Shown in pieces: positions 23,612 through 59,328 of a stretch of 64,000 nucleotides of DNA. Both the position numbers and the translations under genes were made by a program. Below the pieces are notes generated by a model. That model had not been told where the DNA came from. It worked only from the letters and a program-made list of their open reading frames with translations, and made no database searches. Positions within the stretch are counted from its first letter, which is position 1; the number at the start of each line of letters is the position of its first letter. This stretch comes from Conexibacter sp. DBS9H8 (GTDB lineage: Bacteria > Actinomycetota > Thermoleophilia > Solirubrobacterales > Solirubrobacteraceae), in assembly GCF_023330685.1 (NCBI RefSeq), contig NZ_CP097128.1, positions 2,480,001-2,544,000 of the forward strand, given 5' to 3'.

Positions 23612-24061
23612 ATGTACACCAATGAACCGGTCGACACAAGTCGACGGCGCCTGCCCGGTGTGGGCAGCCTTCCCGGCGCGGGTTTCTTCAACGATCGGCT
23701 CAATGACGCCGTCATGCTCCTCGGCGCTCTCCCGGAGATCGTCGTCGCACTCCGCTCGATCCAGGAGCACATCATCCACCTGGACGGCGAGGTTGTCCTC
23801 ATGCGCACCGGGGTCGACTCCCTCGAGCAGGAGGTCCGCGACATGCGCGGGGAGCTCGGCGTCCTCGCGGATGGGATGCACGAGGTAAGCGCAGCGGTCG
23901 CCCGCCTCGAGCCGCACATCGCTGATATCAGCCGGTTGACGCGCCCGCTCAAACGCCGACGGAGCCGCCTGAGCGAGCACGATGCCGGCGGAGCCGTCGT
24001 CACCCCGCTCGTGCCACGCAGCATCGACCCAGCTTCGGCCATCGGCGACACGGCAGGCTGA
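23612..24061 (+). CDS. hypothetical coiled-coil protein
   Basis: 149 residues. Residues about 33-110 form a long amphipathic helix with heptad-like spacing (ALPEIVVALRSIQEHIIHL, VDSLEQEVRDMRGELGVL, MHEVSAAVARLEPHIADI), followed by a basic patch PLKRRRSRL and a disordered tail. The N-terminus has GVGSLPGAGFFNDRL. No transmembrane segment. Such layouts occur in small scaffold or phasin-like proteins, but that is only a resemblance. The upstream 250 bp (23360-23611) contain the hairpin at 23547 and nothing else I can name. Confidence 0.55.
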   Translation: MYTNEPVDTSRRRLPGVGSLPGAGFFNDRLNDAVMLLGALPEIVVALRSIQEHIIHLDGEVVLMRTGVDSLEQEVRDMRGELGVLADGMHEVSAAVARLEPHIADISRLTRPLKRRRSRLSEHDAGGAVVTPLVPRSIDPASAIGDTAG

Positions 24062-24134
24062 GGTCACCGGCACACGGGCGAAGCTCCAATCGCCACCTTC
24101 ACCGGCCACAGTCGCACATGACGTTAAACGCTTC

Positions 24135-24154
24135 GGGCCGCCCTCGGGCGGCCC
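24135..24154 (-). terminator. terminator hairpin of the rRNA operon
   Basis: Perfect 8-bp stem GGGCCGCC/GGCGGCCC with a CGAG tetraloop on the minus strand, 10 nt past the 5S 3' end. Followed by only a short T-containing stretch (GTTTAACG). Confidence 0.7.
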
Positions 24155-24164
24155 GTTGCAGAAG

Positions 24165-24282
24165 ACACCGGCGGCGACCTACTCTCCCGGACCCTTTCGG
24201 GTCAAGTACCATCGGCGCTGAGGGGCTTAACGGCTCTGTTCGGAAAGGGAAGAGGTGTTTCCCCCTCGCCATAGCCACCGGA
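24165..24282 (-). rRNA. rrf: 5S ribosomal RNA
   Basis: About 118 nt. The ends pair through CCGGTGGC and GCCGCCGG (helix I), and the conserved CCGAACAGAGCCGTTAAGCC and GAGAGTAGG segments are present. Last gene of the 16S-23S-5S operon. Ends are estimated to within a few bases. Confidence 0.93.
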
Positions 24283-24325
24283 AATTGTCGAGAGTCCGCC
24301 CGCCTAGGACGAGAGTCCCTCATGC

Positions 24326-24354
24326 GGACCTTCAAAACCACACAGTAACCAATG
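24326..24354 (-). ncRNA. 3' strand of the 23S processing stem
   Basis: This 29-nt stretch pairs with 27466-27494 in the spacer before 23S: 28 of 29 positions pair, three as G-U, with one G-G mismatch. It would form the base of the pre-23S stalk cut by RNase III. Confidence 0.7.
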
Positions 24355-24434
24355 CCGGGCGCACGCGCCCGCTCTCTCGCCTTGCATGTCGCGCTCGTGG
24401 CGCGGACGAGGAGTCGGTATCACAAAGATGTAAA

Positions 24435-27385
<2,951 letters not shown>

Positions 27386-27732
27386 TGATCTATTCAACGA
27401 CGCACCGTAAGGATGGTGCGCCGTCCGAGACGACGGCAAAGCCGTCGCCCGGTGATACCCGTTTACATTGGCTACTGTGCAGTTTTCAAGGTCCGCAAAG
27501 AGGCACCGCACTCGGACTGAGTGCCGGTCTCTCAAAACTCAACAGCATGCGGCCGCCCCTGCGGACTGAGAAGCTGGCTTCTCATGAACAGTGCGGCCTT
27601 CCAGGTCCGGTCGACATCTCTAGTACCAATCTCTGCAGAAGCCGGGGAACTCGAGGTTCCACCTATTGCCACTGACTCGACCGACGGTATTGCCGGCCGG
27701 GCTTGGTGCGCCTGCTCAAGGCAGACTCCCTA
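27386..27732 (-). other. 16S-23S internal transcribed spacer without tRNA
   Basis: 347 nt. I looked for T-loop and acceptor patterns of tRNA-Ile and tRNA-Ala and found none. It holds a boxA-like antitermination stretch before 23S (minus TTGAAAACTGCACAGTAG, 27473-27490), the spacer halves of both processing stems (27466-27494 for 23S, 27526-27550 for 16S) and a GGTATCAC element (27452-27459) that can pair with 24416-24423. Confidence 0.8.
27526..27550 (-). ncRNA. 3' strand of the 16S processing stem
   Basis: Pairs with the leader at 29601-29625 over 24 of 25 positions, including a 17-bp uninterrupted match, leaving 16S in the loop. Expected RNase III substrate. Confidence 0.7.
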
Positions 27733-29280
<1,548 letters not shown>

Positions 29281-35675: not shown

Positions 35676-37291
35676 GGCTCGCGTCCCGCCAGCCGGGCTC
35701 CCCGGGCGGCATGGGTGGACGCGGTCTGCATCCCGTACTCGAGTGAGTCAAGCAGCGCTTCCCAGGAGGCCTCGATCACGTTGGCGGAGACGCCAACGGC
35801 GCCCCACTCGCGGCCGTCCTCGCCCGTCGAGTCAAGCAGCACTCGGGTGACGGCCTCCGTTCCCTTGTTGCCGTCGAGGATCCTCACCTTGAAGTTCGCC
35901 AGCTCGATGCCCGCCAGATCGGGGTAGATCGCCGCGAGCGCGCCGCGCAGCGCCGCGTCGAGGGCGTTGACGGGCCCGTTGCCCTCGGCGGTCTGGACGT
36001 AGCGCACGGCGTCCGGGCCGGGCGGCGCCCACAGCTTCACCGTCGCCTCCGTGGCGACACGGTCCTCGGCGCGCTTCTCCACGATCACCCGCCAGGACTC
36101 GAGCACGAACAGCGGCTCGTAGTCCCCGGTGGCCTTGCGCAACAGGAGCTCGAGCGAGCCGTCGGCCGCCTCATAGTGATAGCCCCGGTGCTCACGCTCC
36201 TTGACGTCTTCGAGGACGCGGGCGGCGACGTTGTCCTCAAGCGAGATCCCGGCGCGCTCGGCGTGTGCGAGGATCGTCCCGCGGCCCGACAGCTCGGAGA
36301 CGAGGACGTCGCGACTGTTGCCGACGAGCACCGGGTCGATGTGCTCGAAGGTGGCCGGGTCGGCTGCGATGCCGGCCACGTGCATGCCTCCCTTGTGGGC
36401 AAAGGCGTTGCGTCCCACGTAGGGCTGATCTGGATTGGGGGCGAGGTTGAGCAGCTCGTTGAGAAAGCCGGATGCGGCGGTGAGCTGGGCAAGCTGGTCC
36501 GGCCTGACGCACGCGTAGCCGAGCTTGAGCTGGAGGTTCGCCACCGCGGTCGTGAGGTTCGCGTTGCCGCAGCGCTCCCCGTAACCGTTCTGGGTGCCTT
36601 GGACCTGCCGGGCACCGGCCGTGACGGCCGCGAGCGTGTTGGCCACCCCGAGTCCGGCGTCGTCGTGGCAGTGGATTCCGACCGCCACCGCCGGAGGAAG
36701 CGTGGCTCGGACGGCAGCGATCGCCTCGGCGATCTGCTCGGGCAGGGAGCCACCGTTGGTGTCGCAGCAGACGACCGTGTCGGCTCCGGCGCGTGCGGCC
36801 GCCATCAGGCAGGCGAGCGCGTACTCGCGGTCGGCACAGAAGCCGTCGAAGAAGTGCTCGGCGTCGTAGATCACCCGCTTCCCCGCGGAGACGAGGAACG
36901 CGACCGAGTCCGCGATCATCGCGAGATTCTCGGCCGGGCTCACCTTCACGACCTTCTCAAGGTGCAGCGACCACGTCTTGCCGACGATCGTGGCGATCGG
37001 GGCAAAGCAGTCCGCGAGCACCGCGAGTGCCGGGTCCTCGGCGGCGCTGAGGTCCTTGCGGTGCGTCATGCCGAATGCCGCCACCTGCGCGTGGTCGAAG
37101 CGCTCGGCGCTGAGCAGCCCGAACAGTTCGAGTTCCTTCGGGTTCGAGCTGGGGAAGCCGGCCTCGATGACGTCGATGCCGAGCTCGTCGAGGGTATGGG
37201 CGACCCGGAGCTTCTCATGCGCCGACAGCGACATTCCCTCCCCCTGCATGCCGTCACGCAGGGTCGTGTCGTAGAGCTCGATCCGCGTCAT
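35672..37291 (-). CDS. cimA: (R)-citramalate synthase
   Basis: Condenses acetyl-CoA and pyruvate to citramalate, the threonine-independent route to isoleucine. 539 residues: HMGL TIM barrel with YDTTLRDGMQGEGMSLSAHEKL, HCHDDAGLGVANTLAAV and GNANLTT; a C-terminal LeuA-type regulatory dimer domain follows. CimA rather than LeuA is preferred because of the GMQGEGMSLS loop, the length and the true LeuA at 54527. A functional pair with LeuCD and LeuB, which act on citramalate derivatives too. 15 nt after ilvE. Confidence 0.9.
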   Translation of the reverse strand: MTRIELYDTTLRDGMQGEGMSLSAHEKLRVAHTLDELGIDVIEAGFPSSNPKELELFGLLSAERFDHAQVAAFGMTHRKDLSAAEDPALAVLADCFAPIATIVGKTWSLHLEKVVKVSPAENLAMIADSVAFLVSAGKRVIYDAEHFFDGFCADREYALACLMAAARAGADTVVCCDTNGGSLPEQIAEAIAAVRATLPPAVAVGIHCHDDAGLGVANTLAAVTAGARQVQGTQNGYGERCGNANLTTAVANLQLKLGYACVRPDQLAQLTAASGFLNELLNLAPNPDQPYVGRNAFAHKGGMHVAGIAADPATFEHIDPVLVGNSRDVLVSELSGRGTILAHAERAGISLEDNVAARVLEDVKEREHRGYHYEAADGSLELLLRKATGDYEPLFVLESWRVIVEKRAEDRVATEATVKLWAPPGPDAVRYVQTAEGNGPVNALDAALRGALAAIYPDLAGIELANFKVRILDGNKGTEAVTRVLLDSTGEDGREWGAVGVSANVIEASWEALLDSLEYGMQTASTHAARGARLAGREP

Positions 37292-37306
37292 CGATCGCCG
37301 GTGGCG

Positions 37307-54526: not shown

Positions 54527-56098
54527 TCAGGGAAGGACCGCGGGCTGGGCCTCGATCGGCGTCGGCTCGGCCCGCCGCCGCATCACGGTTGAGAGCGCTC
54601 GGACATACGCGCGGGCGGCCGCCTCGATGATGTCGGTGGAGACCCCCTGCCCGGCGCCGCTGACGCCGCCGACCTCGAGCACGACCGAGGTTTCCCCAAG
54701 GGCGTCCTGCCCGGCGGTCACCGCCCCGATCCGAAACTCGACGAGCGCAGCGTCGACCCCGGTGGCGGCATTGATCGCGTGAAAGATCGCGTCGATCGGT
54801 CCGTCGCCGGTGAAACTGCCCTGCAGCTCCTCCCCGGCCGACGTGCGCAGGGTCACTCGCGCGTGGGGCGGCCGCTCGCTGCTGGACTCGACGTGGAAGG
54901 CAACGAGGGTGAGACCATCGGCGTCGGCGTCACGGACCTCGTCGGCCACGAGCGCCTCAAGATCGAGCGCGGTCACCTGCTTCTTCTTGTCTGCGATCTC
55001 CTTGAACCGCTTGAACGCGACGTTGAGCGCCTGGCCGCTCACCTCGATGCCCATGTCCGCGAGCGCCTGGGCGAGGGCGTGGCGGCCCGAATGCTTTCCG
55101 AGGACAAGGCTGTTGGAGTCAAGCCCGATCGTCGTCGCATCCATGATCTCGTAGGTGCTGCGCTCCTTGAGCACTCCGTCCTGGTGGATGCCGGCCTCAT
55201 GGGCGAACGCGTTGCGTCCGACGATCGCCTTATTCGGCGGAACCGCGTACCCGGTCAGCCGGCTCACGAGCCGGGAGGTGCGGGCGATCTCCCGGGTGAC
55301 GATCCCGGTGCTCAGACCAAGCCGGTCCCGCCGGGTGGCGAGCAGCATCACGACCTCCTCCAGGCTCGTGTTCCCGGCCCGCTCACCGATCCCGTTGATC
55401 GCGCACTCGACCTGGCGGGCGCCGACGGCGAGCCCGGCCACCGAGTTGGCGACCGCCAGCCCGAGATCGTCGTGACAGTGGACCGAGACGACGACGTCCC
55501 GAAGTGCGGGCACGAGCTCATAGAGAGTGACGAACATCCCCGCGTACTCCTCCGGAGTCGCATAGCCGACGGTGTCGGGGATGTTGATCGTGCTCGCTCC
55601 CGCCTCGATCGCCGCGGCGATCACCTCGGCCTGGAACGCGCGGTCGGAGCGAAAGCCGTCCTCGGTGGAGAACTCGACGTCCTCCACGAGTTCGCGAGCG
55701 TGGCTGACCGCTGCTCGGGCCTGGGCGACCACGTCCGCCCGTGTCGTCCGCAGCTTGTGCTCGATGTGGATGTCCGATGTGGCGATGAACGTGTGAATCC
55801 GAGGTCGGGCGGCGTCCCGGACCGCTTCAAAGGCGGTCTGGATGTCCCCGGCAGCCGTCCGCGCAAGCCCGGCGATGACGGGCCCCTGCACATGCCGGGC
55901 GATCGTCTGCACCGCCTCAAAGTCGCCGGGCGAGGAGACGGGAAAGCCCGCCTCGATGATGTCGACCCCGAGCCGCGCGAGCTGCTGGGCGATCTCGAGC
56001 TTCTCCTGAGCGTTGAGGGAGATGCCCGGCGACTGTTCGCCGTCGCGCAGGGTGGTGTCGAAGATGAGAACGCGGTCGTCGTCGCGTTGTGGGGTCAT
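54527..56098 (-). CDS. leuA: 2-isopropylmalate synthase
   Basis: First committed enzyme of leucine synthesis, acetyl-CoA plus 2-oxoisovalerate. 523 residues of the long bacterial LeuA: DTTLRDGEQSPGISLNAQEKLEIA, HCHDDLGLAVANSVAGLAVGARQVECAINGIGERAGNTSLEEV, and a C-terminal leucine-binding allosteric domain from about residue 395. The ATG has an AGGAGA Shine-Dalgarno 6 nt upstream; that site is complementary to leucine codons of the leader ORF at 56175-56228. Follows serA-serC by a terminator hairpin. Confidence 0.96.
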   Translation of the reverse strand: MTPQRDDDRVLIFDTTLRDGEQSPGISLNAQEKLEIAQQLARLGVDIIEAGFPVSSPGDFEAVQTIARHVQGPVIAGLARTAAGDIQTAFEAVRDAARPRIHTFIATSDIHIEHKLRTTRADVVAQARAAVSHARELVEDVEFSTEDGFRSDRAFQAEVIAAAIEAGASTINIPDTVGYATPEEYAGMFVTLYELVPALRDVVVSVHCHDDLGLAVANSVAGLAVGARQVECAINGIGERAGNTSLEEVVMLLATRRDRLGLSTGIVTREIARTSRLVSRLTGYAVPPNKAIVGRNAFAHEAGIHQDGVLKERSTYEIMDATTIGLDSNSLVLGKHSGRHALAQALADMGIEVSGQALNVAFKRFKEIADKKKQVTALDLEALVADEVRDADADGLTLVAFHVESSSERPPHARVTLRTSAGEELQGSFTGDGPIDAIFHAINAATGVDAALVEFRIGAVTAGQDALGETSVVLEVGGVSGAGQGVSTDIIEAAARAYVRALSTVMRRRAEPTPIEAQPAVLP

Positions 56099-56174
56099 GG
56101 ATGTCTCCTCTGATGAAGGGCTCGAATCGGATCTCTGCTTCGTGAGTTCGCGGCTGTGTGCGGCCGCCGGCGCG

Positions 56175-56228
56175 CTATTCCCCCCGAGGGGGGAGGAGGA
56201 GAAGCAGAAGTCGAGCGCGGAGGGTCAT
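56175..56228 (-). CDS. leucine-rich leader peptide of leuA
   Basis: 17 codons ending in TAG: MTLRARLLLLLLPPRGE, with six leucine codons in a row (CTT CTG CTT CTC CTC CTC). It is too short for a folded protein but has the design of amino-acid operon leader peptides, where slow translation at the repeated codon signals shortage. The ATG lies 11 nt after a TAGACT box. 76 nt upstream of leuA. Confidence 0.75.
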   Translation of the reverse strand: MTLRARLLLLLLPPRGE

Positions 56229-56239
56229 CGCCGCTTGGA

Positions 56240-56245
56240 AGTCTA
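56240..56245 (-). promoter_or_regulatory. -10 box of the leuA transcript
   Basis: TAGACT on the minus strand, 11 nt before the leader ATG, so the leader peptide message has a 5' end of only a few bases. Confidence 0.5.
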
Positions 56246-56256
56246 CCGCGTTGCGG

Positions 56257-56288
56257 TCTGCCTGTGGTCCTTGACGACCACAGGCAGA
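56257..56288 (-). terminator. terminator hairpin after serA
   Basis: Perfect 13-bp stem TCTGCCTGTGGTC/GACCACAGGCAGA with a 6-nt loop, 24 nt past the serA stop and just upstream of the leuA promoter. No T-tract, but the longest perfect stem seen in the minus-strand gaps. Confidence 0.7.
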
Positions 56289-56311
56289 ACCGGCCGTCAC
56301 GGCCCCCGGGC

Positions 56312-59328
<3,017 letters not shown>

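Follow-up and report, generated by a model that had tools for sequence, protein, structure and literature searches.

Why does an open reading frame (ORF) of only 17 codons, six of them consecutive leucine codons, stand just before leuA in a Conexibacter genome, and could it sense leucine on behalf of that gene? The genome carrying this leader is a single contig of 3.6 Mb. Its features are described here within the window, by which we mean the whole 64,000-nt stretch of DNA that was analyzed, and are compared with leuA loci of the genus, family, order and class.

The leader ORF, its conservation and its predicted promoter

The leader lies between leuA and its upstream neighbors, serA (ending at 56312) and serC, with the following elements.

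56228-56175, minus strand: leader ORF MTLRARLLLLLLPPRGE, 17 codons, with its ATG at 56228-56226 and its stop TAG ending at 56175
56210-56193, minus strand: six consecutive Leu codons (CTT CTG CTT CTC CTC CTC), the last four in a fixed register 5´ of the hairpin P2
54527..56098, minus strand: leuA, encoding 2-isopropylmalate synthase of the TIGR00973/NF002086 type, 523 aa
56105..56109, minus strand: leuA Shine-Dalgarno (SD) sequence AGGAG
56245-56240, minus strand: -10 box TAGACT, 11 nt before the leader ATG
56288-56276 / 56269-56257, minus strand: perfect 13-bp inverted repeat without a T run, directly after serA

The codons of the leader are ATG ACC CTC CGC GCT CGA CTT CTG CTT CTC CTC CTC CCC CCT CGG GGG GAA TAG, and a gap of 76 nt separates the stop from the leuA ATG (56098). 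The sequence-only reading had proposed just such a six-Leu ORF 76 nt before leuA, and both its coordinates and its codons were confirmed in the sequence; so short an ORF may, as that reading pointed out, readily escape gene callers. Among 580 ORFs of 8-50 aa in the window, this one alone has a run of four or more Leu codons. Ten order-1 Markov resamples of the window, a chance background drawn from these 64 kb alone, gave two ORFs with four consecutive Leu in total and none with five or six. Since CTC is the commonest Leu codon (60.9%) in the four window genes counted and window GC is about 70%, conservation, and not rarity alone, is our main argument. The window also holds a second LeuA-like gene (35729-37297, minus strand), a citramalate synthase (TIGR00977), and a possibly foreign stretch (24001-28000) with a GC content of 0.58 vs about 0.70 in most of the window and a GC skew of -0.13.

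From the genus, family and order, 60 of 61 genomes contain a LeuA match, in some as a paralogue or fragment alone, and 57 leuA loci were read upstream (L001, which is the window, and L003-L058; the paralogue L002 was excluded). A short Leu-run ORF precedes leuA in 54 of the 57, the window included, and typically reads M-x-x-x-L-D-L-R-L-L-L-L-P-[LP]-R-G-E; the expectation of the sequence-only reading that the ORF and its Leu run be kept in relatives was thus borne out. The three other loci are L030, which has no upstream DNA, L054, which starts inside the leader with the Leu run and hairpin still visible, and L055, which has no leader. The interval from the leader stop to the assigned start of leuA measures 62-88 nt in 51 of the 54 loci. 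Our MAFFT alignment A1 holds 50 leaders, omitting L011 (its leader is that of L010), L028 (misassigned leuA start), L039 (140-nt gap) and L053 (25-aa ORF); alignment A3 holds 40 of these 50. Within the leader's own family, strong primary-sequence conservation is also seen outside the stems described below, for example around GGGGGGAATAGCGCG.

The -10 box points to a promoter dedicated to the leader. In 49 of 54 leaders, a TANNNT motif has its last base 6-12 nt upstream of the start codon, compared with 0 or 1 of 54 at nine shifted control positions (53 leaders at one shift), and from this spacing we predict a near-leaderless transcript. A consensus scan of 56000-56500 called no sigma-70-type promoter. 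LeuL1 of Streptomyces lividans (MRFGLLLLSCRGEGL) is reported in PMC8079986 as transcribed leaderless and without a typical terminator. The sequence-only reading had cited both a -10 box and a serA terminator upstream of the leader: the box is present and kept in relatives, while the terminator fared less well, as the inverted repeat after serA has no T run and a terminator scan of 56000-56500 called none at the locus. The repeat is a possible serA terminator, a label that the missing T run makes a guess.

Codon register and RNA stems

The RNA around the leader is predicted to form two hairpins and, in the window's minimum free energy (MFE) fold, a long-range stem that encloses both.

56179..56194, minus strand: hairpin P2, U-CCCCC (CUCG) GGGGG-A, within the ORF and overlapping the last Leu codon
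56150..56167, minus strand: hairpin P3, GCGGC...GCCGC, downstream of the leader stop
56216-56211 + 56209-56201 with 56125-56120 + 56141-56133, minus strand: long-range stem P1 of the MFE fold, enclosing P2 and P3

The Leu codons keep a strict register with P2. By the positions in A1, P2 begins at the second base of a codon in 50 of 50 aligned leaders, and the four codons ending at P2 encode Leu in 47, 50, 50 and 49 of 50, compared with at most 32 of 50 farther upstream. Codon choice within the run is biased as well. The longest Leu runs (235 codons) consist of 54.5% CTC, 38.3% CTT and 5.1% CTG, and the downstream leuA stretches as fetched (1274 Leu codons) of 40.0% CTC, 4.6% CTT and 51.2% CTG, such that CTY accounts for 218/235 (93%) in the runs vs 567/1274 (45%) in the leuA stretches. 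CUU and CUC are both decoded by the tRNA-Leu with anticodon GAG.

Of all parts of the element, P2 varies least. RNAalifold on the 50 sequences of A1 returned P2 and P3 alone, with a covariation term of -0.24 and P1 absent from the consensus. Across 40 sequences, paired cells make up 98.8% for P2, 97.5% for P3 and 98.2% for both, compared with 96.8% in shuffles, and two-sided changes occur in six cells. Because the stems vary so little, covariation provides limited evidence for P2 and P3.

P1 was evaluated by its pairing partners. In the window's MFE fold, it joins the Leu codons and their upstream neighbors to GAAGCAGAG...TCGAGC, and the window's CTG codon is mirrored by CAG in the opposing strand; the fold z-score is only -1.18 for the window leader and -2.54 for L014. 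The mean P1 duplex energy is -22.2 kcal/mol vs -16.4 kcal/mol for shuffled partners, with p<0.05 in 28 of 50 leaders; the window taken by itself gave p=0.060, with 63% of foreign partners pairing equally well. When partners were permuted among leaders, the native mean was reached in 0 of 20000 permutations, both for all 50 and for family f1 (31 sequences), and the corresponding values were p=0.00075 for the leader's own genus (24), p=0.0034 for f3 (8) and p=0.073 for f2 (8), in a test that controls only partly for relatedness among the sequences. P1 reaches into the SD motif in 22 of 50 leaders and in the window ends 10 nt upstream of AGGAG. These comparisons support co-evolution of the two strands of P1, a predicted stem between the Leu codons and a purine tract at or before the leuA SD. 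An alternative pairing could form between GAGGAGA (56110-56104) and UCUCCUC of the Leu run (56202-56196).

Distribution in Thermoleophilia

The nearest named kin among the LeuA matches listed are Conexibacter and Solirubrobacter, of the class Thermoleophilia, the order of Conexibacter being Solirubrobacterales; Conexibacter arvalis and a Solirubrobacter sp. share 74% identity with the window LeuA, the highest among those matches, a listing from which records very close to the window may be missing. The first four of the 80 named loci listed (L059-L062) match our RNA model R1 at 3.1e-14 or better, and the remaining 76 gave no R1 match below E 0.04. A single strong R1 match occurs in the leader's own genome, and the second-ranked one has E 0.02 (L140). 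L062 comes from a metagenome-assembled genome titled Bifidobacterium breve; its leuA and leader resemble those of Thermoleophilia, and the title or the binning is probably wrong.

Among 159 genomes drawn from the class, 114 have a TIGR00973-type LeuA and 103 have an R1 match anywhere (E<=0.01). We read 83 further class loci, six of them in f1 and 77 outside the order; the latter represent all but five (G232, G460, G538, G547 and G480) of the 82 class genomes that lie outside the order and have a TIGR00973 match. An R1 match (E<=0.02) lies on the leuA strand upstream of leuA in 74 of the 83 loci, directly upstream in 72 of these and upstream by coordinates in L228 and L251. The nine other loci have, by eye, a C-rich hairpin (P2) with TAG or TAA in its loop. 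The Leu-run ORF pattern was found in 68 of the 83, including an unrelated ORF in L312; in eight leaders (L234, L238, L245, L246, L282, L283, L284 and L288), TTG was chosen as the start, which makes their N termini uncertain. The relation of the frame to the hairpin differs among families. Leaders of f5, f7 and f9 mostly end in LLPR or LLPL followed by a stop in the hairpin loop, as do a few of f1 and f2, and in f6 and f78 the reading frame passes through the hairpin. In 13 of 17 f6 loci (for example L161 1547-1580, L243 and L227), a hairpin GTTTGCC-CGTGC-GGCAAAC directly follows the leader, with T-rich sequence some way downstream of it.

Over 396 genomes of the phylum, R1 gave hits in 115 at E<=0.05. 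Eleven of these hits, outside the class (L157, L158, L160, L162, L164-L167, L169, L170 and L172), were taken as chance because the stretches fetched around them have no match to the window LeuA, a comparison that a distant LeuA could escape. The predicted RNA form is best described as widespread in Thermoleophilia, a class of soil bacteria.

The element also precedes a second family of LeuA. A TIGR00970-type LeuA occurs in 20 of the 159 class genomes, and in 11 of the 20 a Leu-rich leader and a hairpin with a stop in its loop precede it (L205-L207, L316, L317, L319, L322, L324, L325, L326 and L330). In three more of the 20 (G528, G521 and G524; loci L313, L314 and L315 of f8, genus g292), a leucine leader like MLSRTKSQTLLLSLAAAG precedes leuA and a hairpin with TTTTTT comes after it, an arrangement that looks like a classical attenuator; five (G212, G265, G491, G507, G529) show neither. 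In G254, both LeuA types are present, each behind a P2-like hairpin. In G159, the element (R1 match at 25886-25952 of contig C85, locus L203) lies upstream of leuS, with a TIGR00970-type leuA next in line; judged from the gene order, the putative cassette has either been transferred to a different leucine gene or remained with it. In L205-L207, L316, L317 and others, all before TIGR00970-type leuA, a motif like ACATACCCGTC comes after the P2 hairpin.

Output on leuA and relation to known leucine leaders

Leucine sensing by ribosome stalling at the leader is very likely. We suggest that the element is a cis-acting, ribosome-mediated leucine sensor for leuA whose output is leuA translation, exerted through P1, a reading to which we give somewhat better than even confidence. 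In this model, the dedicated promoter would start the transcript at or a few bases from the leader ATG, so that a ribosome loads directly onto the leader and decodes four to six Leu codons, nearly all CUU or CUC, with P2 just ahead of its A site. When charged tRNA-Leu is scarce, the ribosome would stall on the Leu codons and occupy the 5´ strand of P1; P1 would then be unable to form, and the region upstream of leuA would be kept open. When leucine is ample, the ribosome would complete the leader and depart, P1 would re-form, and leuA initiation would decrease. We infer this direction of the response, as well as an output on translation rather than transcription; control of translation via P1 is our best guess, with control of transcription as the main rival.

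Simulated folding was also applied to this output. With the leader forced open, mean SD accessibility rose from 0.39 to 0.60 (up in 31 of 50 leaders, down in 7), and in the window SD accessibility rose from 0.31 to 0.39 as that of the start codon fell from 0.65 to 0.46. Shuffled leader ORFs gained as much: the rise was +0.20 for native leaders and +0.23 for the controls (Wilcoxon p=0.25), with the native gain exceeding its control in 21 of 50, and in the window it was +0.08 native vs +0.23 control. Folding therefore lends no specific support to a translational output.

The same leucine sensor could instead act on transcription, with P2/P3 as a pause or termination hairpin or with Rho terminating unless the ribosome stalls, and this we regard as a real possibility, although one well short of even. 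The constancy of P2, greater than that of any other part of the element, counts toward such an output, and so do loci elsewhere in the class and beyond it. In f6, TTTTT occurs within 100 nt before leuA in 13 of 17 loci, after a P3-like hairpin (GTTTGCC...GGCAAAC), and a terminator scan of two of these loci called one terminator in L161 (0.4 expected) and none in L243; the T-rich tract after P3 favors transcriptional control in this family and tips the balance slightly away from a translational output and toward a transcriptional one. In the f8 loci L313-L315, a hairpin and TTTTTT come after the leucine leader of leuA, with a terminator called in L313, and a similar hairpin and T run follow the leader, by eye, in the Acidimicrobiales locus L067. 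Against this, no terminator was called at the window locus, and none of the 54 leaders of the order has TTTTT in the interval from its stop to the assigned start of leuA (misassigned in L028). A transcriptional output alone would also leave the co-evolution of P1 unexplained. Were P1 an antiterminator, it would compete with ribosome occupancy, and no terminator partner was found for it. The leader peptide put forward by the sequence-only reading is supported, its ORF, Leu run and -10 box being kept in relatives; the likeness to a classical attenuator finds no support in the terminator scan of the window locus or in the 54 leaders of the order.

Three further readings are less probable. The RNA might be a binding site for a regulatory protein with the peptide secondary, an idea that PMC1262725 put forward for the LEU element; in the leader's own family, the conserved sequence outside the stems, for example in the surroundings of GGGGGGAATAGCGCG, would suit such a site, but reading frame, start and stop codons, promoter spacing and the register of the Leu codons are all preserved, and we consider it improbable. 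Still less probable is that the short ORF, without sensing leucine, just aids leuA translation, through re-initiation or by keeping the RNA open; the 62-88 nt that part its stop from the assigned start of leuA at 51 of 54 loci would allow for this role, but the presence of Leu at each of four set positions, in 47-50 of 50 leaders, would go unexplained. A chance low-complexity ORF, for which the prevalence of CTC (60.9% of Leu codons in the four window genes) in GC-rich DNA might speak, is contradicted by conservation across order and class, and we reject it as scarcely credible.

In a more speculative reading, the four Leu codons would be decoded exactly while the ribosome opens P2, coupling leucine decoding to a mechanical barrier. 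The hairpin and the termination site would then form the core of the device, because the stop lies in the hairpin loop (LLPR*) in several families and some loci keep hairpin and stop while the Leu run decays to scattered Leu. The module would precede two LeuA families and, once, leuS-leuA. This reading as a whole, in which Thermoleophilia share one RNA class with an in-frame hairpin gating a leucine sensor, an exchangeable cassette with translational or transcriptional outputs depending on the branch, is one that we offer tentatively and consider rather doubtful. The natural variants (stop in or after the loop, T-rich tract or none, two LeuA families, leuS) could separate the sensor from the switch.

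Leucine leaders before leuA are already known in Actinobacteria, and none from Thermoleophilia appeared among the open-licence PMC papers listed. The classical leucine attenuator (enteric leu leader, RF00512) has in common with the present locus a short leader with consecutive Leu codons before leuA; it differs in that no terminator was called at the window locus. A known Rfam RNA at the leader was rejected, as a search of 55000-57000 gave three matches, none of which fell on the leader or came near its gathering score. The ilvB-II and other ilvB uORF motifs (PMC10272879) are described as transcription attenuation; they likewise are conserved RNA motifs that are actually uORFs rich in branched-chain amino acids, but they precede a gene other than leuA. 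Closer in position are the f8 loci L313-L315, of the same class, and L067, of another, where a Leu-run leader precedes leuA as it does here, but a hairpin and T run follow and no P2-type hairpin was noticed. In L067 (Acidimicrobiales AG-414-N20), the ORF upstream of leuA reads MITKNLLLLM, with the terminator-like hairpin and T run recognized by eye.

The nearest counterpart is the LEU element, found in leuA leaders with a pseudoknot in most Actinobacteria (Seliverstov et al., 2005, PMC1262725). Like the present RNA, it combines a Leu-run leader before leuA with pairing, predicted in the present case, between the Leu codons and the SD region and has no obvious terminator; the same source tells of leader mutations in Streptomyces coelicolor leuA with some effect, results that, as recounted there, do not fit classical attenuation. 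The base stem of LEU, between the Leu codons and the SD box, has a possible equivalent here: a stem with the Leu codons is supported, but it overlaps the SD in 22 of 50 leaders and not in the window fold. The two differ in architecture, a pseudoknot in LEU vs two consecutive simple hairpins with the Leu run abutting P2 here, and in leuA family, TIGR00973 in the window vs TIGR00970 at the loci behind our LEU-type model. Outside the class, a Leu-run ORF was present at 30 of 30 TIGR00970 loci and at 12 of 14 more, and in their aligned leaders a helix CCGCGRCGRG/CYCGUCGCGG interleaves with a second possible pairing, the latter seen by eye.

The model R2, built from 23 of these TIGR00970 leaders from outside the class with the pseudoknot left out, recovered, at E<=3.2e-7, 13 of 25 loci that were held out or served as controls and missed the TIGR00970 loci L214-L216 and L218-L222. 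On 60 Thermoleophilia loci, R2 gave no match at the leader below E 0.3 (L319 at 0.37 and L061 at 0.91 overlap it), and R1, run on 42 TIGR00970 loci of other classes, likewise had no leader match under E 0.5 (L192 at 0.68). As the reciprocal models fail to recognize each other, identity with the LEU-type RNA is not supported. A remote common origin is not excluded, both leaders often reading LLLLxxRGE. By these models, the two appear to be alike in logic and place and not recognizably the same RNA, such that Thermoleophilia, if our reading is correct, would hold a second, structurally different RNA that apparently does the same job as LEU in a neighboring class, with a strict register between codons and hairpin.
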